A DNA stretch of 64,000 nt from Maribacter huludaoensis (GTDB lineage Bacteria > Bacteroidota > Bacteroidia > Flavobacteriales > Flavobacteriaceae), in the NCBI RefSeq assembly GCF_029350945.1, contig NZ_JARKMS010000007.1, positions 62,001-126,000 on the forward strand, in the 5' to 3' direction. The translations under genes and the position numbers were made by a program. Below are positions 7,167-43,036 of this stretch, piece after piece (position 1 is the stretch's first letter; each line of letters begins with the position of its first letter). Below the pieces are notes generated by a model. It was not told the DNA's origin, did no database searches, and was given only the letters and a program-made list of their open reading frames with translations.

Positions 7167-7183
7167 CATCTGAATTAAAAAAA

Positions 7184-7257
7184 AAAGAGGAGGGATTTGA
7201 CTGATTGCAACCTCTGTTTTAACCTTAAGGTATAAAGCGAAAAAAATGCTAAAGCAG
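7184..7257 (+). promoter_or_regulatory. SAM-II-like riboswitch aptamer upstream of metK
   Basis: The layout matches the SAM-II (metA/SAM-alpha) H-type pseudoknot. P1 is AGAGG (7186-7190) with CCTCT (7211-7215). Its large loop carries GATTTGACTGATTGCAA, close to the SAM-II loop consensus. The 3' part AAAATGCTAAAGCAG carries the conserved GCTAAA. A pseudoknot is possible between CTG..GC (7201-7208) and GC..CAG (7248-7257); the known alphaproteobacterial version has CC/GG at that place, so the pairing would be covariant. The location in front of SAM synthetase fits feedback control by SAM. No computed model score is available. Confidence 0.8.
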
Positions 7258-7302
7258 TTGATGTAGATTCCTATCGCATCATACTTCTTTTCGGCATTCA
7301 TA

Positions 7303-13122: not shown

Positions 13123-13151
13123 TAGCTCAAAGTTCACACACGTATTGAATA

Positions 13152-13251
13152 GTTATCAAGAAAGGTGGAGGGATTAGACCCTTTGAAACCTTAGCAACCC
13201 TTTGTTCCATACAAAGAAGGTGCTACATTCTACCCTTAGGGGAAGGATAAC
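13152..13251 (+). promoter_or_regulatory. SAM-I (S-box) riboswitch
   Basis: P1 is GTTATC (13152-13157) with GATAAC (13246-13251). Inside are the S-box hallmarks in order: AAGAAAGGTGGAGGGA, GACCCTTTGAAACC, TTAGCAACCC, and AAGGTGCTACATTC before the closing segment. The aptamer stands in front of metY and the downstream homoserine/methionine genes, which it should turn down when SAM is high. Confidence 0.96.
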
Positions 13252-13282
13252 AGTAATCGATTTTCTCGATATTACTTTCTTA
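13252..13282 (+). terminator. Expression-platform hairpin of the first SAM-I riboswitch
   Basis: AGTAATCGA (13252-13260) pairs with TCGATATTACT (13266-13276, one bulge) directly after P1, followed by the T-rich TTCTTATAACTTTTT. It is likely the regulated terminator; the T tract is imperfect. Confidence 0.55.
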
Positions 13283-28865: not shown

Positions 28866-28891
28866 CAATTCGTTCCTAATTAAATTGTATT

Positions 28892-28997
28892 GTTATCAAG
28901 AAAGGCGGAGGGACTAGACCCTGTGAAACCTTGGCAACCCTTTCCGTAATGGAAAAGAAGGTGCTACATTCTATCCTAATTCAAAAGGACAGATAAC
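28892..28997 (+). promoter_or_regulatory. SAM-I (S-box) riboswitch upstream of metH
   Basis: P1 is GTTATC (28892-28897) with GATAAC (28992-28997). Conserved interior blocks: AAGAAAGGCGGAGGGAC, GACCCTGTGAAACC, TTGGCAACCC and AAGGTGCTACATTC. It is nearly identical in layout to the riboswitch at 13152, with a different variable arm (TTTCCGTAATGGAAA). No strong terminator follows, so the switch may act otherwise or terminate at a weak hairpin in 28998-29060. Confidence 0.96.
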
Positions 28998-29078
28998 TAA
29001 AGAAAGAACATAATTACCTTCCTTTCCTTACTTGATATCATATATTTTAAAGCGAACAAATAATTTGTTAAGCGTAAA

Positions 29079-30461: not shown

Positions 30462-33229
30462 TGTCTGGAAGTATTTCAAATAAACCATCAACTGACAACG
30501 GTCAACCGACAACTAAATACCTGAAATTGTCAGGTTTGGAACCCCTAATAGTCACTCCCGAAACCAACTTCATAAACGTTGGTGAGCGAACAAACGTTGC
30601 GGGTTCAAAAAAGTTTCTTCGTTTAGTAAAAGAGGAAAAGTTTGAAGAGGCGTTGGCAGTGGCTAGGGAGCAGGTTGAAAATGGTGCCCAGGTTATTGAT
30701 ATTAACATGGATGACGGATTGATCGATGGTAAACAGGCCATGGTGAAATTTTTAAACCTTGTTATATCAGAGCCGGATATTTCTCGTGTGCCTATTATGA
30801 TCGACAGTTCTAAATGGGAAATCATTGAAGCTGGTCTGCAAGTTGTTCAAGGTAAATGTGTGGTAAACTCCATTAGCTTAAAAGAGGGCGAAGAGCAATT
30901 TATACACCATGCCAAACTCATAAAAAGATATGGTGCCGCGGTAATTGTTATGGCTTTTGATGAGGTAGGTCAGGCAGATAATTATGACCGTAGAATTGAA
31001 ATAGCAAAACGTTCGTATGATGTTTTGGTGAACAAGGTAAATTTTGCACCAGAGGATATCATTTTCGACTTAAATATTTTTCCGGTAGCAACGGGAATGG
31101 ATGAGCATAAATTAAATGCTGTTGATTTTATTGAAGCTACAAGATGGGTCCGTGAAAACTTGCCACATGCCAGTGTAAGTGGTGGCGTTAGTAATGTTTC
31201 GTTTTCATTTAGGGGCAATAACCCGGTGCGTGAGGCTATGCACTCGGTCTTCTTGTACCACGCTATAAAAGCAGGTATGAACATGGGTATTGTAAATCCT
31301 AGTATGCTAGAGGTGTATGATGATATTCCTAAAGATTTATTGGAGCATGTAGAAGACGTTATCTTAAATAGAAGAGATGATGCAACAGAGCGCTTATTAG
31401 ATTTTGCAGAATCTGTAGTCGGTAAAACCAAGGAAAGTAAAATAGATCTTTCTTGGAGAGAAGAACCTTTACAGGATAGAATTACACGTGCCTTGGTAAA
31501 AGGTATTGATCAATATATTGTTGAAGATGTAGAAGAGGCTAGAGTAGCTGCCGATAAGCCAATAGAGGTTATTGAGGGCAACTTAATGACGGGTATGAAC
31601 GTGGTGGGCGATTTATTCGGTAGCGGAAAAATGTTCTTGCCGCAGGTGGTAAAATCTGCCCGAGTGATGAAAAAGGCGGTAGCTTATTTATTACCCTATA
31701 TTGAAGAAGAAAAGTTATTGAATCCGCAAGTTGGAGATTCTGATAATGCCGGCAAGATATTAATGGCAACCGTAAAGGGCGATGTTCATGATATAGGTAA
31801 AAATATTGTGGGTGTAGTATTGGCCTGTAACAATTATGAGATCGTTGATCTAGGCGTAATGGTGCCACCGGAAAAAATTATTGCAGCAGCTATTGAGCAT
31901 AATGTAGATATTATAGGGCTTAGCGGATTAATTACCCCATCATTGGATGAGATGGTGCATTTGGCAAAGGAAATGCAACGTAAAGATTTCAAGATTCCGT
32001 TGTTGATCGGTGGGGCAACCACCAGTAAGGCACATACCGCGGTAAAGATCGATCCACAATATAAAGAGGCAGTAGTTCATGTAAACGATGCTTCTAGAGC
32101 GGTAACCGTGGTGGGCGATTTGTTGCAGAAAGAAACAGCTACGAGCTACAAGAAAAGTATAAAAGATGATTATGATGTGTTTAGGGAAAAGTTCTTGAAC
32201 CGTTCATCCAGTAAAACATATAAGCCAATTTCTGCCGCACGTAGAAATAAGTTTAAAATAGATTGGAAAACTTCTGAAATTGTAAAACCGAACAATTTGG
32301 GTATTCAGGTGATCGAAGATTTAGATCTGAATCTTTTGGTTCCCTATATAGATTGGACTCCCTTCTTTAGAAGTTGGGAACTGCATGGTAAATATCCTGC
32401 AATATTGACCGATGATGTTGTAGGGGAACAAGCAACCGATTTATTTGCAGACGCTCAAGTGATGCTGAACAAGATAATTTCCGAAAAGAAATTAAAGGCT
32501 AAAGGTGTATTTGGACTGTTTCCTGCGAATTCCATTAATGACGATGATATTTTAGTCGATACTAGTTCAAGTTTAGAAGGGAATACAGGGTCGCTTAGCG
32601 GAGCCGAAACAGATGGAAACTATACTTTCCGTACCCTTCGCCAACAATTAGAGCGTAGGGAAGGAGTCGCAGATTATGCCTTGGCGGATTTTATTGCTCC
32701 AAAAGAATCTGGGAAACAAGATTACATGGGTTGTTTCTGTGTATCCACAGGGTTTGGTACTGCAGAAATGGCGGCGCAATATGAGAAAGACCTAGATGAC
32801 TATAACTCCATCATGGTAAAGGCATTGGCGGATCGTTTAGCCGAAGCATTTGCTGAATACTTGCATAAAGAGGTGAGAACAGCGCATTGGGGTTATGCCG
32901 CCAATGAAGATCTGAGCAATGAAGATTTAATCAAGGAATCTTATAAAGGTATTCGTCCTGCGCCTGGTTATCCTGCTTGTCCCGATCACTTGGAAAAATT
33001 GACCATTTGGGATATTCTGAAAGTAAAGGAAACCATAGGTGTGGAGCTAACAGATAGTCTTGCCATGTGGCCGGCCGCATCTGTAAGTGGGTATTATTTT
33101 GGTAACCCGGAAGCCCGTTACTTTGGTCTTGGTAAAATAAAACTGGATCAAGTAAAGGATTTTGCGGAACGAAAGGGGATTTCGTTTGAAGAAGCCGAGA
33201 AATGGCTTGCACCAAATATAGTGGACTAA
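30461..33229 (+). CDS. metH: Methionine synthase, pterin-, cobalamin- and reactivation-domain protein
   Basis: 922 residues completing methionine synthase: methyl-THF-binding domain ([15 protein letters not shown], then [14 protein letters not shown]), cap plus B12-binding domain with axial His443 in [13 protein letters not shown], and the C-terminal SAM-dependent reactivation domain ([12 protein letters not shown]). It transfers the methyl group of methyl-THF through cobalamin to homocysteine bound by the companion protein at 29079. The ATG at 30461 overlaps the stop of the S23 gene. About 15 N-terminal residues ([12 protein letters not shown]) are encoded by the right copy of the repeat before the family sequence [11 protein letters not shown] begins. 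Confidence 0.96.
30491..30511 (+). repeat. Right inverted repeat flanking the S23 gene
   Basis: Contains ACTGACAACGGTCAACCGAC, which in reverse complement matches the left copy at 30071-30091 (19 of 21). It is translated as part of the N terminus of the second metH gene. Confidence 0.8.
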
Positions 33230-33230
33230 T

Positions 33231-33340
33231 GCGTTAGGGATTGCAGCGGCATCTTTTTCTATTTCTGAACTGTGCCAATGTTAAGTAAAAAGAGTTGTTG
33301 AAATAGAAAAAATATAGCGAAAAGCCCGCCCGAACGCCCA
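33231..33340 (+). ncRNA. Candidate structured intergenic element between metH and metF
   Basis: GCGTT (33231) can pair with AACGC (33333-33337). Inside, TTTTTCTATTTC (33254-33265) and GAAATAGAAAAA (33300-33311) form a perfect 12-bp stem. Single-stranded blocks GGGATTGCAGCGGCATC and ATATAGCGAAAAGCCCG border that stem. The same blocks are familiar to me from many flavobacterial intergenic regions, where stem sequences vary but the blocks do not; this was not searched here. It could be a dispersed repeat, a structured RNA or both. Strand assigned by neighbouring genes. Confidence 0.55.
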
Positions 33341-37626: not shown

Positions 37627-38736
37627 ATGAAAAAACCTAATTTATTTATCTTGTTCTTTTTAAGTATCATCATTTTTTCTTGTTCAAAAGATGATAGTAA
37701 TGGCAGTTTCTCCGATGATATAGATCCAGATGGAGTTAATGTAAAAGAAGAAGTTTTATTAGATATAAATGCAACCTCTTCTGGAATTGCAATAGAAGGG
37801 GCTACATTGAATGATGGCGGAGTAACGCCAACAGGAGGTGTAGATTTTAGTTTGGATTATACTTCTCAAACTGCATTTCAAGACTATGGATTTGAAATAA
37901 TTTTTGATGCACCAACAGATTTTGCCGGAGCCTATATTCAGTTGTTCGATGAAAATGGAATGGCAGATAGTTATATAGATGTACCTTCAAGTGCTACAGA
38001 AGCATATTATGGAGGCAAATTCTTATCAAAAGAAAGAAAAGATATTTTCACTAAAAAAGGAGCGTCTACCCAAAAAGATGAAGATACTGTAATAGATGTA
38101 AATTTTTCTAATACTGTTCCTGCCGGAACATTCTGTTATGCAATTTGTGTGTATGATAGCCAAGGTAACATTAGTCAACCAGTAGAAGTATGTGTAACAG
38201 TTGAGTCTTGGGGAGGTAATGTAAATCTTGTGGGCGACTGGGATTTTACAAAACAAATAGATAATGGAGAAACTATTGCAGTTGGTGAAGAAACATGTGA
38301 AAGTTATGACTCTACGCTAAATTGCGATAATGGAACTCAACGAGAGGTAGAACTGGATGAATGTTATACACTTAATAATCTACTGATTACATTTAATGAA
38401 AACGGGACCTATTTCTTTAGTCAAGAATCCAATTATAAAAGCTATGATTACGCTGCATCTAATGAGTCTTGCGAGGTTATATATGAAGAAGATGGTGGTG
38501 AGGCCTATACATCTTCAGGCAACTGGGCTTTTAACGAAGAGGAGAATATTTTGACCTTGGTAGAATTTGAATATACTGAAACTGGAGACGGTGAAACTTA
38601 TACGGACGTAGAACCAGATGGTTACTTATTGTTAGAAGGAGAAATAAGACTTTCAGCTAATGAATTAATAATTTCAGAATCGGATACTTTTAATGGAGAA
38701 ACAGAACTTTACGAATATTTTTTCAGTAAAAAGTAA
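37627..38736 (+). CDS. Secreted lipoprotein with C-terminal lipocalin-like region
   Basis: 369 residues. Type II signal peptide ending FSCSKDDSNGS. Residues about 40-195 are a beta-sandwich-like part (FDAPTDFAGAYIQLFDENG); from about 200, LVGDWDFTKQIDNGETIAVG opens a lipocalin-like domain with cysteines (EETCESYDSTLNCDNGT). Acidic, no enzyme motifs. The function is unknown. Single gene with its own promoter and terminator. Confidence 0.75.
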   Translation: MKKPNLFILFFLSIIIFSCSKDDSNGSFSDDIDPDGVNVKEEVLLDINATSSGIAIEGATLNDGGVTPTGGVDFSLDYTSQTAFQDYGFEIIFDAPTDFAGAYIQLFDENGMADSYIDVPSSATEAYYGGKFLSKERKDIFTKKGASTQKDEDTVIDVNFSNTVPAGTFCYAICVYDSQGNISQPVEVCVTVESWGGNVNLVGDWDFTKQIDNGETIAVGEETCESYDSTLNCDNGTQREVELDECYTLNNLLITFNENGTYFFSQESNYKSYDYAASNESCEVIYEEDGGEAYTSSGNWAFNEEENILTLVEFEYTETGDGETYTDVEPDGYLLLEGEIRLSANELIISESDTFNGETELYEYFFSKK

Positions 38737-38756: not shown

Positions 38757-38786
38757 TAAAAGACCTCTTTCTAGAGGTCTTTTTTA
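38757..38786 (+). terminator. Terminator of the lipoprotein gene
   Basis: AGACCTCT (38761-38768) pairs with AGAGGTCT (38773-38780) around TTCT, followed by TTTTTATTT. Confidence 0.9.
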
Positions 38787-38930
38787 TTTCTATTGGTAAT
38801 TCATGTTTAATTTAATTTTTAACACAAAACCTTCGTATTTTGAGATAGAAATTGAATTTTTTAAAATAATAAAACGGAAAACGACCATTTTTAAATATAA
38901 TTACTACATTAGCCACAGATTACAAAAGTG

Positions 38931-39002
38931 ATGACAAAACAATATTTCTGGAACGGTTTTTATTTTTACTTCTTTTTTAAGAGAGGTACGGGACTGTTGT
39001 AG
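38931..39002 (+). CDS. Aromatic-rich leader peptide of a transcription attenuator
   Basis: 23 codons from ATG to TAG. Ten of 23 residues are aromatic: Tyr-Phe-Trp at 5-7 and an unbroken run Phe-Tyr-Phe-Tyr-Phe-Phe-Phe at 10-16, then KRGTGLL. It ends 26 bases before a perfect terminator hairpin and 75 bases before pheA, the first gene of an aromatic amino acid operon. This is the classical design of ribosome-mediated attenuation (compare pheL/pheST leaders of enterobacteria): shortage of charged Phe/Tyr (Trp) tRNA stalls the ribosome in the run and favours readthrough. It is too short for ordinary gene finders. Confidence 0.88.
   Translation: MTKQYFWNGFYFYFFFKRGTGLL
38985..38994 (+). promoter_or_regulatory. 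Candidate antiterminator strand of the attenuator
   Basis: GGTACGGGAC, in the last codons of the leader peptide, can pair with the 5' half of the terminator: GGGAC with GTTCC (39031-39035) and GTAC with GTAC (39039-39042). This would compete with the terminator hairpin. The exact switch geometry relative to the stalled ribosome is inferred. Confidence 0.45.
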
Positions 39003-39028
39003 TATATTTTAAATATAAAATAGAATCT

Positions 39029-39060
39029 AAGTTCCGATGTACATCGGAACTTTTTTTTTG
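39029..39060 (+). terminator. Attenuator terminator before pheA
   Basis: AAGTTCCGATGT followed at once by its exact reverse complement ACATCGGAACTT (a perfect 24-base palindrome, 39029-39052), running into nine T. It stands between the leader peptide and the pheA start, in a place where a constitutive terminator would silence the operon. Confidence 0.92.
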
Positions 39061-39077
39061 AATAAAACGGAGCAAAA

Positions 39078-39905
39078 GTGAGTCTAAAAATAGCCATACA
39101 GGGAATAAAGGGCAGTAACCACCATCAAGTGGCAAAAGATTGTTATGGAGATGATATTGAGTTGGTAGAATGCCTTTCTTTTGATGCTCTGGTAGATAAG
39201 TTGTTGACCAAAGAAGCGGATCAGGGTGTTATGGCCATTGAAAATTCCATTGCAGGATCGATCATTCCTAATTATGCTTTGGTAAACCATAATGACCTAC
39301 ACATCATTGGGGAGTATTATTTAAACATCCATCACAATTTAATGGTATTAAAAGGCCAGAAGATTGAGGATATAACAGAAGTAAGTTCACACCCAATGGC
39401 ACTATTGCAGTGTAAGGAATATTTTAGACAATATCCGCATATAAAATTGGTGGAAGACGTAGATACTGCAGAGACCGCAAAACGAATTCAAAAAGAAAAA
39501 CTTAAGCATGTAGCGGCTATTGCTCCTAACGTTGCGGCAGAATTATATGGGTTGGACATCGTAGCGAACGACATACAAACCATTCAAAATAATGCTACGC
39601 GTTTTATCATTGTAAAAACAAAAAATGATGCACTGCCAGAGGCAGAGATCAGTAAGGCATCTTTACGGTTTTTAACAGACCATAAAAGAGGTAGTTTGGC
39701 GGCAGTGCTTAATGTTATGAGCGATTGTAGATTGAATTTAACCAAAATACAGTCGTTACCGGTGATAGAAACACCTTGGAAATATGCTTTTTTTGTTGAT
39801 GTAACTTTTAATGATTATGCAGATTTTACGAAGGCTAAAAGTCTATTGAACATCATGGCGGAAGACTTTAAGATTTTGGGTGAATATAAAAATGTAAGAC
39901 AATGA
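39078..39905 (+). CDS. pheA: Prephenate dehydratase
   Basis: 275 residues, catalysing prephenate to phenylpyruvate. The catalytic domain shows IAIQGIKGSNHHQVA, VMAIENSIAGSIIPNY, SHPMALLQC and the NNATRFIIV motif (Thr-Arg-Phe, substrate binding). A C-terminal ACT domain (RGSLAAVLNVMSDCRLNLTK) probably senses phenylalanine. There is no chorismate mutase domain; that activity is fused to the DAHP synthase three genes on. Start is GTG at 39078, preceded by a GGAG at suitable distance, a rare Shine-Dalgarno-like site for this genome. First gene after the attenuator. Confidence 0.95.
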   Translation: MSLKIAIQGIKGSNHHQVAKDCYGDDIELVECLSFDALVDKLLTKEADQGVMAIENSIAGSIIPNYALVNHNDLHIIGEYYLNIHHNLMVLKGQKIEDITEVSSHPMALLQCKEYFRQYPHIKLVEDVDTAETAKRIQKEKLKHVAAIAPNVAAELYGLDIVANDIQTIQNNATRFIIVKTKNDALPEAEISKASLRFLTDHKRGSLAAVLNVMSDCRLNLTKIQSLPVIETPWKYAFFVDVTFNDYADFTKAKSLLNIMAEDFKILGEYKNVRQ

Positions 39906-41050
39906 TACGTACTGCCAAAAGGTTAGATACCATACAGGAATACTACTTCTCAAAAAAATTGAGAGAAGTTCGTGGTTTAATGGCACAAGGTAAACCTATC
40001 ATTAATATGGGTATTGGTAGTCCTGATCTGGCTCCGTCCCAAGAGGTTTTAAAAGCCATACAAGCAGCAGTGTTAGAGACCGGTGCGCACCAATACCAAA
40101 GTTACCAAGGCTTGCCTCAGTTAAGAGATGCCATAGCCAATTTTTATAAGAATAAATTTAGTGTTGCCGCAGACGCAAATACCGAAATTTTGCCATTAAT
40201 GGGATCTAAGGAAGGTATTATGCATATAAGCCTTGCTTTTTTGAACGAGGGTGATGAGGTATTAATACCAAATCCTGGGTACCCAACATACACCTCTGTA
40301 ACCAATTTGATAGGGGCCGTGCCAAAATACTATGATTTAACCGCTGATAATGGTTGGTTTCCAGATTTGGAGGCATTGGCAAAGCAAGATTTATCAAGGG
40401 TAAAGGTGATGTGGTTAAGCTATCCTCATATGCCAACAGGTGCTACGGCAACCAAAGAGCAGTTTATAAAGATGGTGGCATTTGCCCAAGATCATGATAT
40501 TTTATTGGTGAACGATAATCCATATAGTTTTGTCCTGAATGACGAACCTGCCAGTATTTTAAGCTTGCCCAATGCAAAAAAGGTGTGTTTAGAATTGAAT
40601 TCTTTGAGTAAAACGTTCAACATGGCCGGCTGGCGTGTAGGTTTTGTTTTGGGTAGCGATGAGCATATCAATGCTATTTTAAAGGTGAAGAGCAATATGG
40701 ACTCCGGTATGTTCTACGGAATACAAAAAGGGGCAATTGCCGCTTTGAATAGCAGTGATGACTGGTTTAAGGAACTAAATGAAATTTATGGTAAGCGAAG
40801 AGAATTGATCTATAAGTTGGTAGACAAGCTTGGATGTTCATATGATCGTAACGCAGTAGGCATGTTCGTTTGGGCCAAATTGCCGGAAGGCAGTGTATCA
40901 TCAGAAGAGTTCATAGATGATATTTTATATAATAAAGATCTGTTTATTACGCCAGGAACCATTTTTGGGAGTAATGGTGAAGGCTATATTCGTTTTTCAC
41001 TATGTATAACGGAGCATAAAATAGAAGAGGCAATAAAAAGATTTGAATAA
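39902..41050 (+). CDS. Class I/II aminotransferase, probable aromatic or prephenate aminotransferase
   Basis: 382-residue fold-type I PLP enzyme. It shows NMGIGSPDLAPSQEVLKAI, PLMGSKEGIMHISLAFL, LIPNPGYPTYTSV and the lysine block LNSLSKTFNMAGWRVGF. It overlaps pheA by ATGA and precedes tyrA, so it most likely transaminates phenylpyruvate and hydroxyphenylpyruvate (or prephenate) in this pathway. Similarity to LL-diaminopimelate aminotransferases is an alternative from sequence alone. Confidence 0.88.
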   Translation: MIRTAKRLDTIQEYYFSKKLREVRGLMAQGKPIINMGIGSPDLAPSQEVLKAIQAAVLETGAHQYQSYQGLPQLRDAIANFYKNKFSVAADANTEILPLMGSKEGIMHISLAFLNEGDEVLIPNPGYPTYTSVTNLIGAVPKYYDLTADNGWFPDLEALAKQDLSRVKVMWLSYPHMPTGATATKEQFIKMVAFAQDHDILLVNDNPYSFVLNDEPASILSLPNAKKVCLELNSLSKTFNMAGWRVGFVLGSDEHINAILKVKSNMDSGMFYGIQKGAIAALNSSDDWFKELNEIYGKRRELIYKLVDKLGCSYDRNAVGMFVWAKLPEGSVSSEEFIDDILYNKDLFITPGTIFGSNGEGYIRFSLCITEHKIEEAIKRFE

Positions 41051-41080: not shown

Positions 41081-41947
41081 ATGAATGTATTTGTAATAGG
41101 TATCGGTTTAATAGGAGGTTCTTTGGCGAAAGACATAAAGTCGGCATTCGACAATGTTACCGTTTATGGCATAGAATCTAATGAGGCAAACTTGGCTGAA
41201 GCATTGTCTTTGGGTATTATAGATAAAAAAGCTACCTATCAAGATTTACAATTGGCAGATATGGTCATTGTAAGTATACCGGTAGATGTTATGGTTACCG
41301 AGCTTCCTGTTATTTTGAATGCCGTTCATGAAGATTGTGTTGTTTTTGATGTTGGGTCTACCAAATCCATGATTTGCAAGGTGTTGGAAAATCATCCTAA
41401 GAGAAGAAACTTTTTGGCATGTCATCCTATTGCAGGAACGGAGTTTTCGGGTCCGTCCGCAGCGATCAACAATTTATTCAAAGACAAAACAAATATTATT
41501 TGTGAGGTAGAGTTAACGGCATTTAAGCTCCAAGAAAGAGCGTTAAAAGTTTTTCAAGCTATTGGCATGAGAATACGTTATATGAACCCCGTTGCTCATG
41601 ATAAGCATATTGCATACGTATCCCATTTATCGCACATAAGTTCGTTCATGTTGGGTAAAACAGTGATCGAGAAAGAGAAGAACGAGCGTGATATTTTTGA
41701 CATGGCCGGTAGTGGGTTTGAAAGCACGGTGCGTTTGGCAAAGAGTTCTCCTGCCATGTGGACACCTATTTTTAAACAGAATAAGGAGAATGTGGTAGAA
41801 ACTTTGGAGGAGTACATTCAAAATCTAACCGCATTTAAGGAACTGTTGTTGAAAGATGATTATGAGGGCATTTATAATGAAATGAATAATACGAATAAGA
41901 TTAAAGGAATATTAAAAAGAAATACCGTTAAACAAGAAATAGAATAA
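41081..41947 (+). CDS. tyrA: Prephenate dehydrogenase
   Basis: 288 residues. NAD(P)-binding FVIGIGLIGGSLAKDI with an acidic residue after the second strand (YGIESNE) suggesting NAD. Active-site segments: ACHPIAGTEFSGPSAAI, and the histidine region AYVSHLSHISSFML. It oxidatively decarboxylates prephenate to 4-hydroxyphenylpyruvate for tyrosine. No ACT or chorismate mutase domain. The short gap before it holds two small palindromes (GTCTTAAGAC; TAAAGC-GTA-GCTTTA). Confidence 0.93.
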   Translation: MNVFVIGIGLIGGSLAKDIKSAFDNVTVYGIESNEANLAEALSLGIIDKKATYQDLQLADMVIVSIPVDVMVTELPVILNAVHEDCVVFDVGSTKSMICKVLENHPKRRNFLACHPIAGTEFSGPSAAINNLFKDKTNIICEVELTAFKLQERALKVFQAIGMRIRYMNPVAHDKHIAYVSHLSHISSFMLGKTVIEKEKNERDIFDMAGSGFESTVRLAKSSPAMWTPIFKQNKENVVETLEEYIQNLTAFKELLLKDDYEGIYNEMNNTNKIKGILKRNTVKQEIE

Positions 41948-41953
41948 GTAAAA

Positions 41954-43036
41954 ATGGAAAATTCAAAACAAATGAGAACATGGTTGGATGATTTAAACCT
42001 TGACCATCCACTAGTAATAGCAGGGCCATGTAGTGCGGAAACCGAGGAGCAGGTGTTAGGTATAGCACACTCCCTAAAAGATACCGATGTAAACTATTAC
42101 AGAGCAGGTATATGGAAGCCACGTACTCGCCCAGGAAATTTTGAAGGTGTAGGAGCTTTGGGGCTTAAGTGGCTTCAAAAGGTAAAAGCTGAAACAGGTA
42201 TGAAAACGGCTACCGAGGTGGCCAACCGTGCTCATGTAGAATTAGCTTTAGAGCATGATATAGACTTATTATGGATAGGGGCAAGATCAACCGTTAGTCC
42301 GTTCATTATGCAAGAATTGGCAGATGCACTTAAGGGTACCGACAAGGTTGTATTGGTAAAGAACCCGGTAAATCCAGATTTAGCTTTATGGTTAGGCGGT
42401 ATTGAAAGGTTACATACGGCAGGTATTAAAAAGTTGGGTGCAATTCATAGAGGATTCTCTACATATGAGAAAACCAAGTATAGAAATATACCGGAATGGC
42501 AAATGGCGATCGAATTTCAGAACAGATTTCCAGATTTACCTTTGATCAACGATCCATCTCATATCACAGGTAAAAGAGATATGATCTTTGATGTTTCTCA
42601 GACTGCTTTAGATTTAAATTTCGACGGATTAATGATCGAAACGCACCATGATCCAGATAATGCATGGAGTGATGCCGCACAACAGGTAACTCCAGAGAAA
42701 TTGGTTCAGATTATGAGAGACCTAAAAATTAGAAAAGAGAGTGATCCAGAGGCGGAATACAATGCCCAGTTGAGTAACTTAAGAGCTCAGATAGATGTTA
42801 TTGACAGTCAATTGATAGAAACATTGGGTAAGAGAATGAAAGTTTCGGACGGTATTGGTGAGCTTAAAAAGCAAAAAAACGTTGCTGTATTACAATCTAA
42901 TAGATGGAACCAAATTTTAGGTGCAATGATACTTGAAGGGGAAAGTAAAGGACTTAGTGAGGAATTTGTTCTTCGTATGTTCAAGGCTATTCATCAAGAG
43001 TCTATAAACCACCAGGAAAAGATAGTGAACGGTTAA
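41954..43036 (+). CDS. Bifunctional DAHP synthase / chorismate mutase
   Basis: 360 residues. About 1-255 are a type I-beta (KDPG/KDO8P-synthase-like) 3-deoxy-7-phosphoheptulonate synthase: VIAGPCSAETEEQVLG, RAGIWKPRTRPGNFEG, GAIHRGFSTYEKTKYRN, NDPSHITGKRDMIF and METHHDP-like IETHHDPDNAWSDA. About 265-360 are an AroQ-type chorismate mutase (RAQIDVIDSQLIETLGKRM). It thus feeds both the entry step of the shikimate pathway and the branch toward Phe and Tyr; the mutase often confers prephenate inhibition in such fusions. Last gene of the attenuated operon, 6 bases after tyrA. Confidence 0.95.
   Translation: MENSKQMRTWLDDLNLDHPLVIAGPCSAETEEQVLGIAHSLKDTDVNYYRAGIWKPRTRPGNFEGVGALGLKWLQKVKAETGMKTATEVANRAHVELALEHDIDLLWIGARSTVSPFIMQELADALKGTDKVVLVKNPVNPDLALWLGGIERLHTAGIKKLGAIHRGFSTYEKTKYRNIPEWQMAIEFQNRFPDLPLINDPSHITGKRDMIFDVSQTALDLNFDGLMIETHHDPDNAWSDAAQQVTPEKLVQIMRDLKIRKESDPEAEYNAQLSNLRAQIDVIDSQLIETLGKRMKVSDGIGELKKQKNVAVLQSNRWNQILGAMILEGESKGLSEEFVLRMFKAIHQESINHQEKIVNG

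Follow-up and report, generated by a model that had tools for sequence, protein, structure and literature searches.

The pheA operon and its leader region

The window analysed here, a stretch of 64,000 nucleotides from Maribacter huludaoensis, carries on its forward strand a four-gene operon for aromatic amino acid synthesis. It begins with pheA, encoding prephenate dehydratase (39078–39905, PF00800), followed by a class I/II aminotransferase (39902–41050, PF00155), probably the aromatic one as judged from its place in the operon, by tyrA, encoding prephenate dehydrogenase (41081–41947, NF006307 over its cut-off and Pfam), and by a DAHP synthase fused to chorismate mutase (41954–43036, PF00793 and PF01817). 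These Pfam assignments uphold the operon proposed in the first-pass annotation, an earlier reading of the same DNA; TyrA alone among the four proteins passes a curated NCBIfam cut-off. The same gene order was found by tblastn in 138 of the 140 loci L031–L170; the two exceptions have pheA and the aminotransferase, with tyrA or lacking it. Among the 40 more distant loci L171–L210, 17 have the full order and the remaining 23 part of it. The nearest named PheA loci are those of Maribacter, with L031 being 99% identical.

Upstream of pheA lies a short frame of 23 codons, from an ATG at 38931 to a TAG that ends at 39002, whose product, MTKQYFWNGFYFYFFFKRGTGLL, contains ten aromatic residues. They are arranged in two groups: Tyr5, Phe6 and Trp7 (codons 5–7, 38943–38951), which are aromatic in relatives too, and an unbroken and conserved series of seven, Phe-Tyr-Phe-Tyr-Phe-Phe-Phe (codons 10–16, 38958–38978), which is the presumed stalling site. 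Frame, residue count and the row of seven are as the first-pass annotation had described them. The frame is followed by a terminator hairpin of ten pairs with a 4-nt loop (39029–39052), identified by terminator prediction and by the stem pairs kept in relatives, and by the T tail of this terminator (39053–39059). The hairpin sequence, AAGTTCCGATGTACATCGGAACTT, is its own reverse complement over all 24 bases. Both the palindrome and the nine T of the earlier description are present, but the first two T of the run (39051–39059) lie inside the palindrome; the run ends 18 nt 5′ of the GTG start of pheA at 39078.

The 5′ arm of the terminator has two alternative partners, its own 3′ arm and a strand within the final leader codons. 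The sequence GGTACGGGAC of the first-pass annotation is present at 38985; the strand CGGGACT (38989–38995, inside codons 20–22) pairs with 39030–39036 of the terminator 5′ arm with one G-U pair. This antiterminator strand is defined by pairing, covariation and folding simulation. The leader and hairpin region as a whole folds at z = −3.5, none of 200 shuffles being equally stable.

Conservation, apparent translation and probable promoter of the leader

PheA was found in 46 of 60 near-relative genomes, in 277 of 299 genomes of the family, in 39 of 139 of the class, with none seen in the other 100, and in 119 of 138 of the phylum. The ranks of these groups are those of the search tool, and we take the class to be Bacteroidia. 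The family sample consists of the best 80 of 550 named loci, counted as family at a PheA identity of at least 75%, together with 65 loci chosen by hand for different genera; the wider sample holds 7 of 10 matches from other families of the order, 25 of 34 from other orders of the class and 21 of 89 from other classes.

A strict script, which requires at least five aromatic residues in ten codons, a T-tailed hairpin and the duplex, detects the element at 166 of the 180 loci, namely at 138 + 5 family loci, 5 from the order, 15 from the class and 3 from outside it; the 14 misses were inspected singly. The leader is present at −656 in L160; L181, L195, L198 and L203 have it too, with a terminator that had escaped the first script, mostly through a long loop, the L195 antiterminator being read by eye. 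In L183 and L184, the leader lies 3.6–3.7 kb 5′ of pheA and heads a gene run that begins with DAHP synthase/chorismate mutase; this gene, aroB and aroA were named by eye. L101, cut off by a contig end, is the sole family miss. No leader was found at L180, the one miss of the order, or at L185, L190, L194, L201 and L205, the five misses of the class, despite about 5 kb more of upstream DNA, in which none of the six has an ATG frame with at least six aromatic residues in ten codons; L201 has a fitting terminator with the leader absent.

Leader and terminator thus precede pheA, or the operon to which it belongs, at 144 of 145 family loci. Outside the family, they do so at 6 of 7 loci elsewhere in the order, at 20 of 25 in the other orders of the class and at 3 of 21 in other classes. 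Frame and hairpin are therefore conserved in relatives by a wide margin, the condition on which the first-pass annotation had made its reading depend. The three loci from other classes (L207–L209) had been selected for a PheA nearest to that of the class; at the other 18, nothing was found within 800 nt upstream of the PheA match. In L207, L208 and L209, a class-like PheA with 42–45% identity to that of the window is accompanied by the aromatic leader, possibly reflecting a horizontal transfer of the operon with its attenuator.

In two genomes of another order (L300 and L301), DAHP synthase/chorismate mutase is the gene that follows the aromatic leader, and pheA is found 3.6–3.7 kb downstream, behind aroB- and aroA-like genes (read by eye in L300). 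In this layout, the attenuator goes with the operon start and not with pheA.

As a chance control, both strands of the 180 loci (2.83 Mb) were scanned for an ATG-started frame with at least seven aromatic residues in ten codons and a T-tailed hairpin at most 130 nt from its stop; 162 such pairs are located upstream of pheA versus 2 elsewhere.

The leader frame looks translated, as judged from its variation. Among 76 named loci with a 23-codon leader, variation outside the aromatic codons is 0.141, 0.129 and 0.253 at the three codon positions, respectively, the third being the highest; in codons 5–16 the values are 0.024, 0.067 and 0.129, a pattern partly forced by the picking of frames for their aromatic residues. 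The other two frames are stop-free across the leader span in just 24 and 22 of 166 loci. These non-aromatic codons and other frames replace an argument from the lack of Leu or Cys among codons 10–16, which was dropped because the leaders had been preselected for aromatic codons. The first-pass annotation had stressed that the leader carries all three aromatic residues: Phe and Tyr are indeed present in 166 of 166 leaders, but Trp in only 114, with mean contents of 5.9 Phe, 3.3 Tyr and 0.69 Trp per leader. The amino acids sensed would be mainly Phe and Tyr.

Upstream of the leader ATG, a box, TACATTAG (38905–38912), is the probable promoter −7 element, with one mismatch to the consensus TAnnTTTG (PMC9723704). 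Of 143 family loci, 132 have the relaxed form TAnnTT[TA]G no further than 60 nt from the leader ATG, most commonly 26 nt 5′ of it as in the window, versus 14 of 353 control stretches; the strict form is found in just 11 of the 143. The position of the box implies a very short 5′ UTR, of about 10–13 nt here if the start site is placed from it. A sigma-70 promoter scan was uninformative at this locus (23 matches versus 26.6 expected), and the Bacteroidota box was used in its place.

Alternative pairings and the position of the ribosome

When 24 Maribacter-type loci picked by hand are aligned, the stem pairs of the terminator are kept in 192 of 192 cells with seven double changes, a number reached by none of 500 shuffles. 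The antiterminator is 98.2% paired in the same alignment, with one double change, which is not above shuffles (117/500), and its covariation comes from the wider set. Compensatory changes, which the first-pass annotation had proposed to look for in both pairings, are thus seen in the terminator of close relatives and, for the antiterminator, over the wider set but not within the Maribacter-type alignment alone.

The commonest cores of the antiterminator duplex are GGGACT facing AGTCCC (54 of 166 loci) or AGTTCC (19 of 166), and next come GAGAC or GAGGC facing GTCTC (16 and 14 of 166). Other pairs are CAGGATTGT/ACAATCCTG in L130, CGAGGCTTT/AAAGCCTCG in L173, AGGCGGGA/TCCCGCCT in L187 and GAGCGGTC/GACCGCTC in L181, while in the two genomes with the leader 3.6–3.7 kb 5′ of pheA quite different arms, GAATCGG/CCGATTC (L300), are complementary again. 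The leader/arm pairs belonging to the same locus reach a mean score of 18.10 versus 14.27 upon permutation (sd 0.27, maximum 15.08; 2000 permutations, 154 distinct loci). For the 23 script-found loci outside the family, the scores are 18.17 and 12.49, respectively, none of 5000 permutations being as high; just 8 of these 23 leaders have no better partner than their own arm, because many arms are alike, and L196, L206, L207 and L209 have duplexes of five pairs only. In a fixed register, which was taken from the best duplex and favours the counts, the seven pairs are formed in 147, 164, 165, 165, 164, 157 and 122 of 166 loci. The third of them is G-C in 123 loci and A-T in 39, and is paired in 165 of 166; on a FastTree phylogeny of PheA, one side of it changes 10 times, the other 8 times and the pair as a whole 10 times. 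When independent-pair counts are summed across five positions, a pooling of our own, some 10.3 run in the same direction, 0.2 run against it and 20.5 leave the partner unchanged, and no single position is significant in sign tests on the PheA tree. On these grounds, the apparent conservation of the peptide C-terminus looks like RNA conservation.

The antiterminator strand begins a median of 10 nt (quartiles 9–11) 3′ of the last aromatic codon, a near-constant spacing that places the switch at this codon: a modelled ribosome frees the strand at the aromatic codons and covers it one to two codons further on. Folding was performed on the transcript up to the terminator loop with the ribosome footprint masked. 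Over 16 A-site positions of the window, P(antiterminator) stays at 0.99 through codon 15, falls to 0.83 at the last aromatic codon (codon 16) and is 0.00 from codon 17. In 143 family loci, it is 0.95–0.97 within the aromatic run, 0.73 at the last aromatic codon, 0.05 at the next codon and 0.02 at the stop; the fall is less sharp in the 23 outside loci (0.60, 0.29, then 0.08, and 0.16 at the stop). With footprint edges assumed anywhere from +9 to +17, the switch moves by roughly one or two codons.

For the full-length RNA at equilibrium, the terminator prevails in every case, with P of 0.82–0.97, so that the choice of read-through must be kinetic. In the truncated RNA without a ribosome, P(antiterminator) is 0.98 in the window and averages 0.68 in the 143 family loci and 0.71 in the 23 outside loci, the antiterminator being favoured in 74% and 70% of them, respectively. 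In attenuators of the trp type, a protector hairpin gives termination without translation. Here, a protector hairpin is not dependably predicted; the antiterminator being favoured without a ribosome, the basal state would differ from that of the E. coli trp model and a trp-style protector would not be a dependable part.

The element before pheA is in all likelihood a ribosome-mediated transcription attenuator, a function read from its sequence and folding models. It has a short frame, apparently translated, with codons for the products of the operon, an intrinsic terminator predicted between the leader and the first gene, a mutually exclusive antiterminator kept by compensatory change across the wider set, and, in masked-footprint folding, a ribosome position at the regulatory codons that picks the hairpin. 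Given that most of the related genomes examined share this layout, a shortage of Phe or Tyr is very probably what the element senses. The ribosome would begin the leader frame once the latter emerges. With charged Phe- and Tyr-tRNA plentiful, it would pass the aromatic codons and cover 38989–38995; the terminator (39029–39052) would form, and RNA polymerase would stop before pheA. With these charged tRNAs scarce, the ribosome would stall within codons 10–16 and leave 38989–38995 free to capture the terminator 5′ arm before the 3′ arm is made, and transcription would enter pheA, the aminotransferase, tyrA and DAHP synthase/chorismate mutase. Termination, stalling and the starvation response in the cell are what this arrangement of parts leads us to expect.

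By comparison with TnaC-like systems, the leader could also be an arrest peptide, stalled by its nascent hydrophobic chain together with free phenylalanine or tyrosine instead of by uncharged tRNA. The leader peptide is indeed short, hydrophobic and conserved within genera; however, Tyr, Phe and Trp interchange at codons 5, 7, 11, 13 and 16, leader lengths and residue order vary among types, and the conserved C-terminal residues track the RNA pairing (RGTGL with AGTCCCG, RNETLYV with AGTCTCG), all of which makes such a peptide improbable. A shade less probable again is a T-box, a TRAP-like or another RNA-binding antiterminator leader that senses tRNA or protein, with the frame being incidental. 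Such systems commonly share a terminator with alternative pairing, but they do not need the near-fixed distance between the last aromatic codon and the antiterminator, nor a frame that looks translated; moreover, no Rfam family reaches its gathering score at the element, and no T-box is present among the four gathering matches of the window or the 31 loose matches at 38900–39080. That the hairpin terminates upstream transcription and the small frame is a chance T-rich run, as AT-rich sequence and T-rich aromatic codons might suggest, is hardly credible, given that the upstream gene (37627–38736) has its own terminator-like hairpin (38758–38783), that the leader-terminator pair is specific to pheA upstreams, and that the other frames are mostly closed and third codon positions vary most, outside the aromatic codons too.

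Related leaders and comparison with known systems

Leaders of other kinds were counted with non-ATG starts allowed and without a chance control: His-run leaders with a T-tailed terminator lie upstream of hisG at 12 of 12 loci (L211–L222; nine of the genus, including this genome, and three of other families). For trpE, 11 of 18 matches were checked (L223–L233), and 9 of these loci, all but L231 and L232, have a WWW leader and a terminator upstream of the gene. Of 16 ilvD-family genes, 9 are preceded by an Ile/Leu/Val-rich frame and a terminator. The ilvD case is the weakest because Ile, Leu and Val codons are common. In this genome, the hisG leader (L214) is MKNRTTHHHFHIHAQAR, where CTCAGGCG can pair with the terminator-arm sequence CGTTTGAG; L223 is its trpE locus; and its ilvD gene (L256) is preceded by the Ile/Val-rich leader MLINLNIEIVIVVPVMG and a terminator, where TGATATAG can pair with CTGTATCA, both pairings being read by eye. 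On the evidence of these sequences, leaders for His and Trp are present in this genome as well, and an Ile/Val leader probably is too. No convincing Thr/Ile leader was found at 11 homoserine-dehydrogenase loci (L271–L281).

The aromatic leader occurs in tandem at some loci. Upstream of pheA, L199 (453–730) has two complete leaders in series with a terminator after each, and L203 (485–775) has two aromatic leaders, likewise each with a terminator, the first of these being long-looped with a 5′ side that matches the leader by eye. An apparent second leader in L093 overlaps the first terminator and was rejected.

We lean slightly towards a general reading in which leader-peptide attenuation is an old and widespread control of amino acid synthesis in Bacteroidia (Phe/Tyr, His, Trp and probably Ile/Val), operating with very short 5′ UTRs and without Shine-Dalgarno initiation or a dependable protector, and present in tandem in some lineages. 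If true, these properties would require a close coupling of transcription and translation. According to a 2024 review, Bacteroidota do not use Shine-Dalgarno pairing, and it is still to be learned whether transcription and translation are coupled beyond E. coli and Bacillus (PMC10931766). The attenuator could be a natural, testable reporter for both coupling and Shine-Dalgarno-free initiation, and a handle on aromatic amino acid control in a major phylum.

The first-pass annotation considered attenuators of this type to be little described in Bacteroidota. However, a 2021 transcriptome of Flavobacterium psychrophilum already names a structured 5′ element upstream of pheA, said to be present in other genera, and describes strong clues that leader-peptide attenuation operates ahead of amino-acid operons (PMC9723704). 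Gene and family are shared with the element described here; those passages give neither a leader sequence nor a pairing, and no occurrence outside the family, part of which the supplements of the paper may hold. Leader-like small frames are mentioned in Bacteroides (PMC7366714), and neither ‘bacteroid’ nor ‘flavobacter’ occurs in the main text of PMC2965389. Among titles, abstract beginnings and passages of the open literature, we found no paper on the anatomy of the pheA attenuator or on its class-wide spread. This spread, the paired antiterminator changes and the tandem copies are apparently new to print.

The four Rfam gathering matches of the window are one SAM-II riboswitch, two SAM (S box) riboswitches and one Flavo-1 RNA; the sites are 7181–7262, 13150–13253, 28890–28999 and 33228–33335. 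At the pheA leader, the Rfam Phe_leader model RF01859 aligns over its full length at 38930–39058, with 25.6 bits (E 0.016) against a gathering score of 55 bits; this match and one to PyrR, both below the gathering score, were not taken as membership.

The working principle of the attenuator is textbook. The hisL, trpL and ilv leaders of Proteobacteria are attenuators that share this principle and differ in regulatory codons and genes. In E. coli pheL, a Phe-rich leader peptide and a terminator precede the prephenate dehydratase gene, and a stalled ribosome releases the antiterminator. The pheL-type architecture claimed by the first-pass annotation holds overall: the Phe-rich leader, the terminator before the prephenate dehydratase gene and the antiterminator are common to both. 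Here, in contrast, the leader also contains Tyr codons and often Trp codons, the antiterminator strand is located inside the frame, in the last leader codons, a protector hairpin is not a dependable prediction, and the operon also carries tyrA and DAHP synthase.
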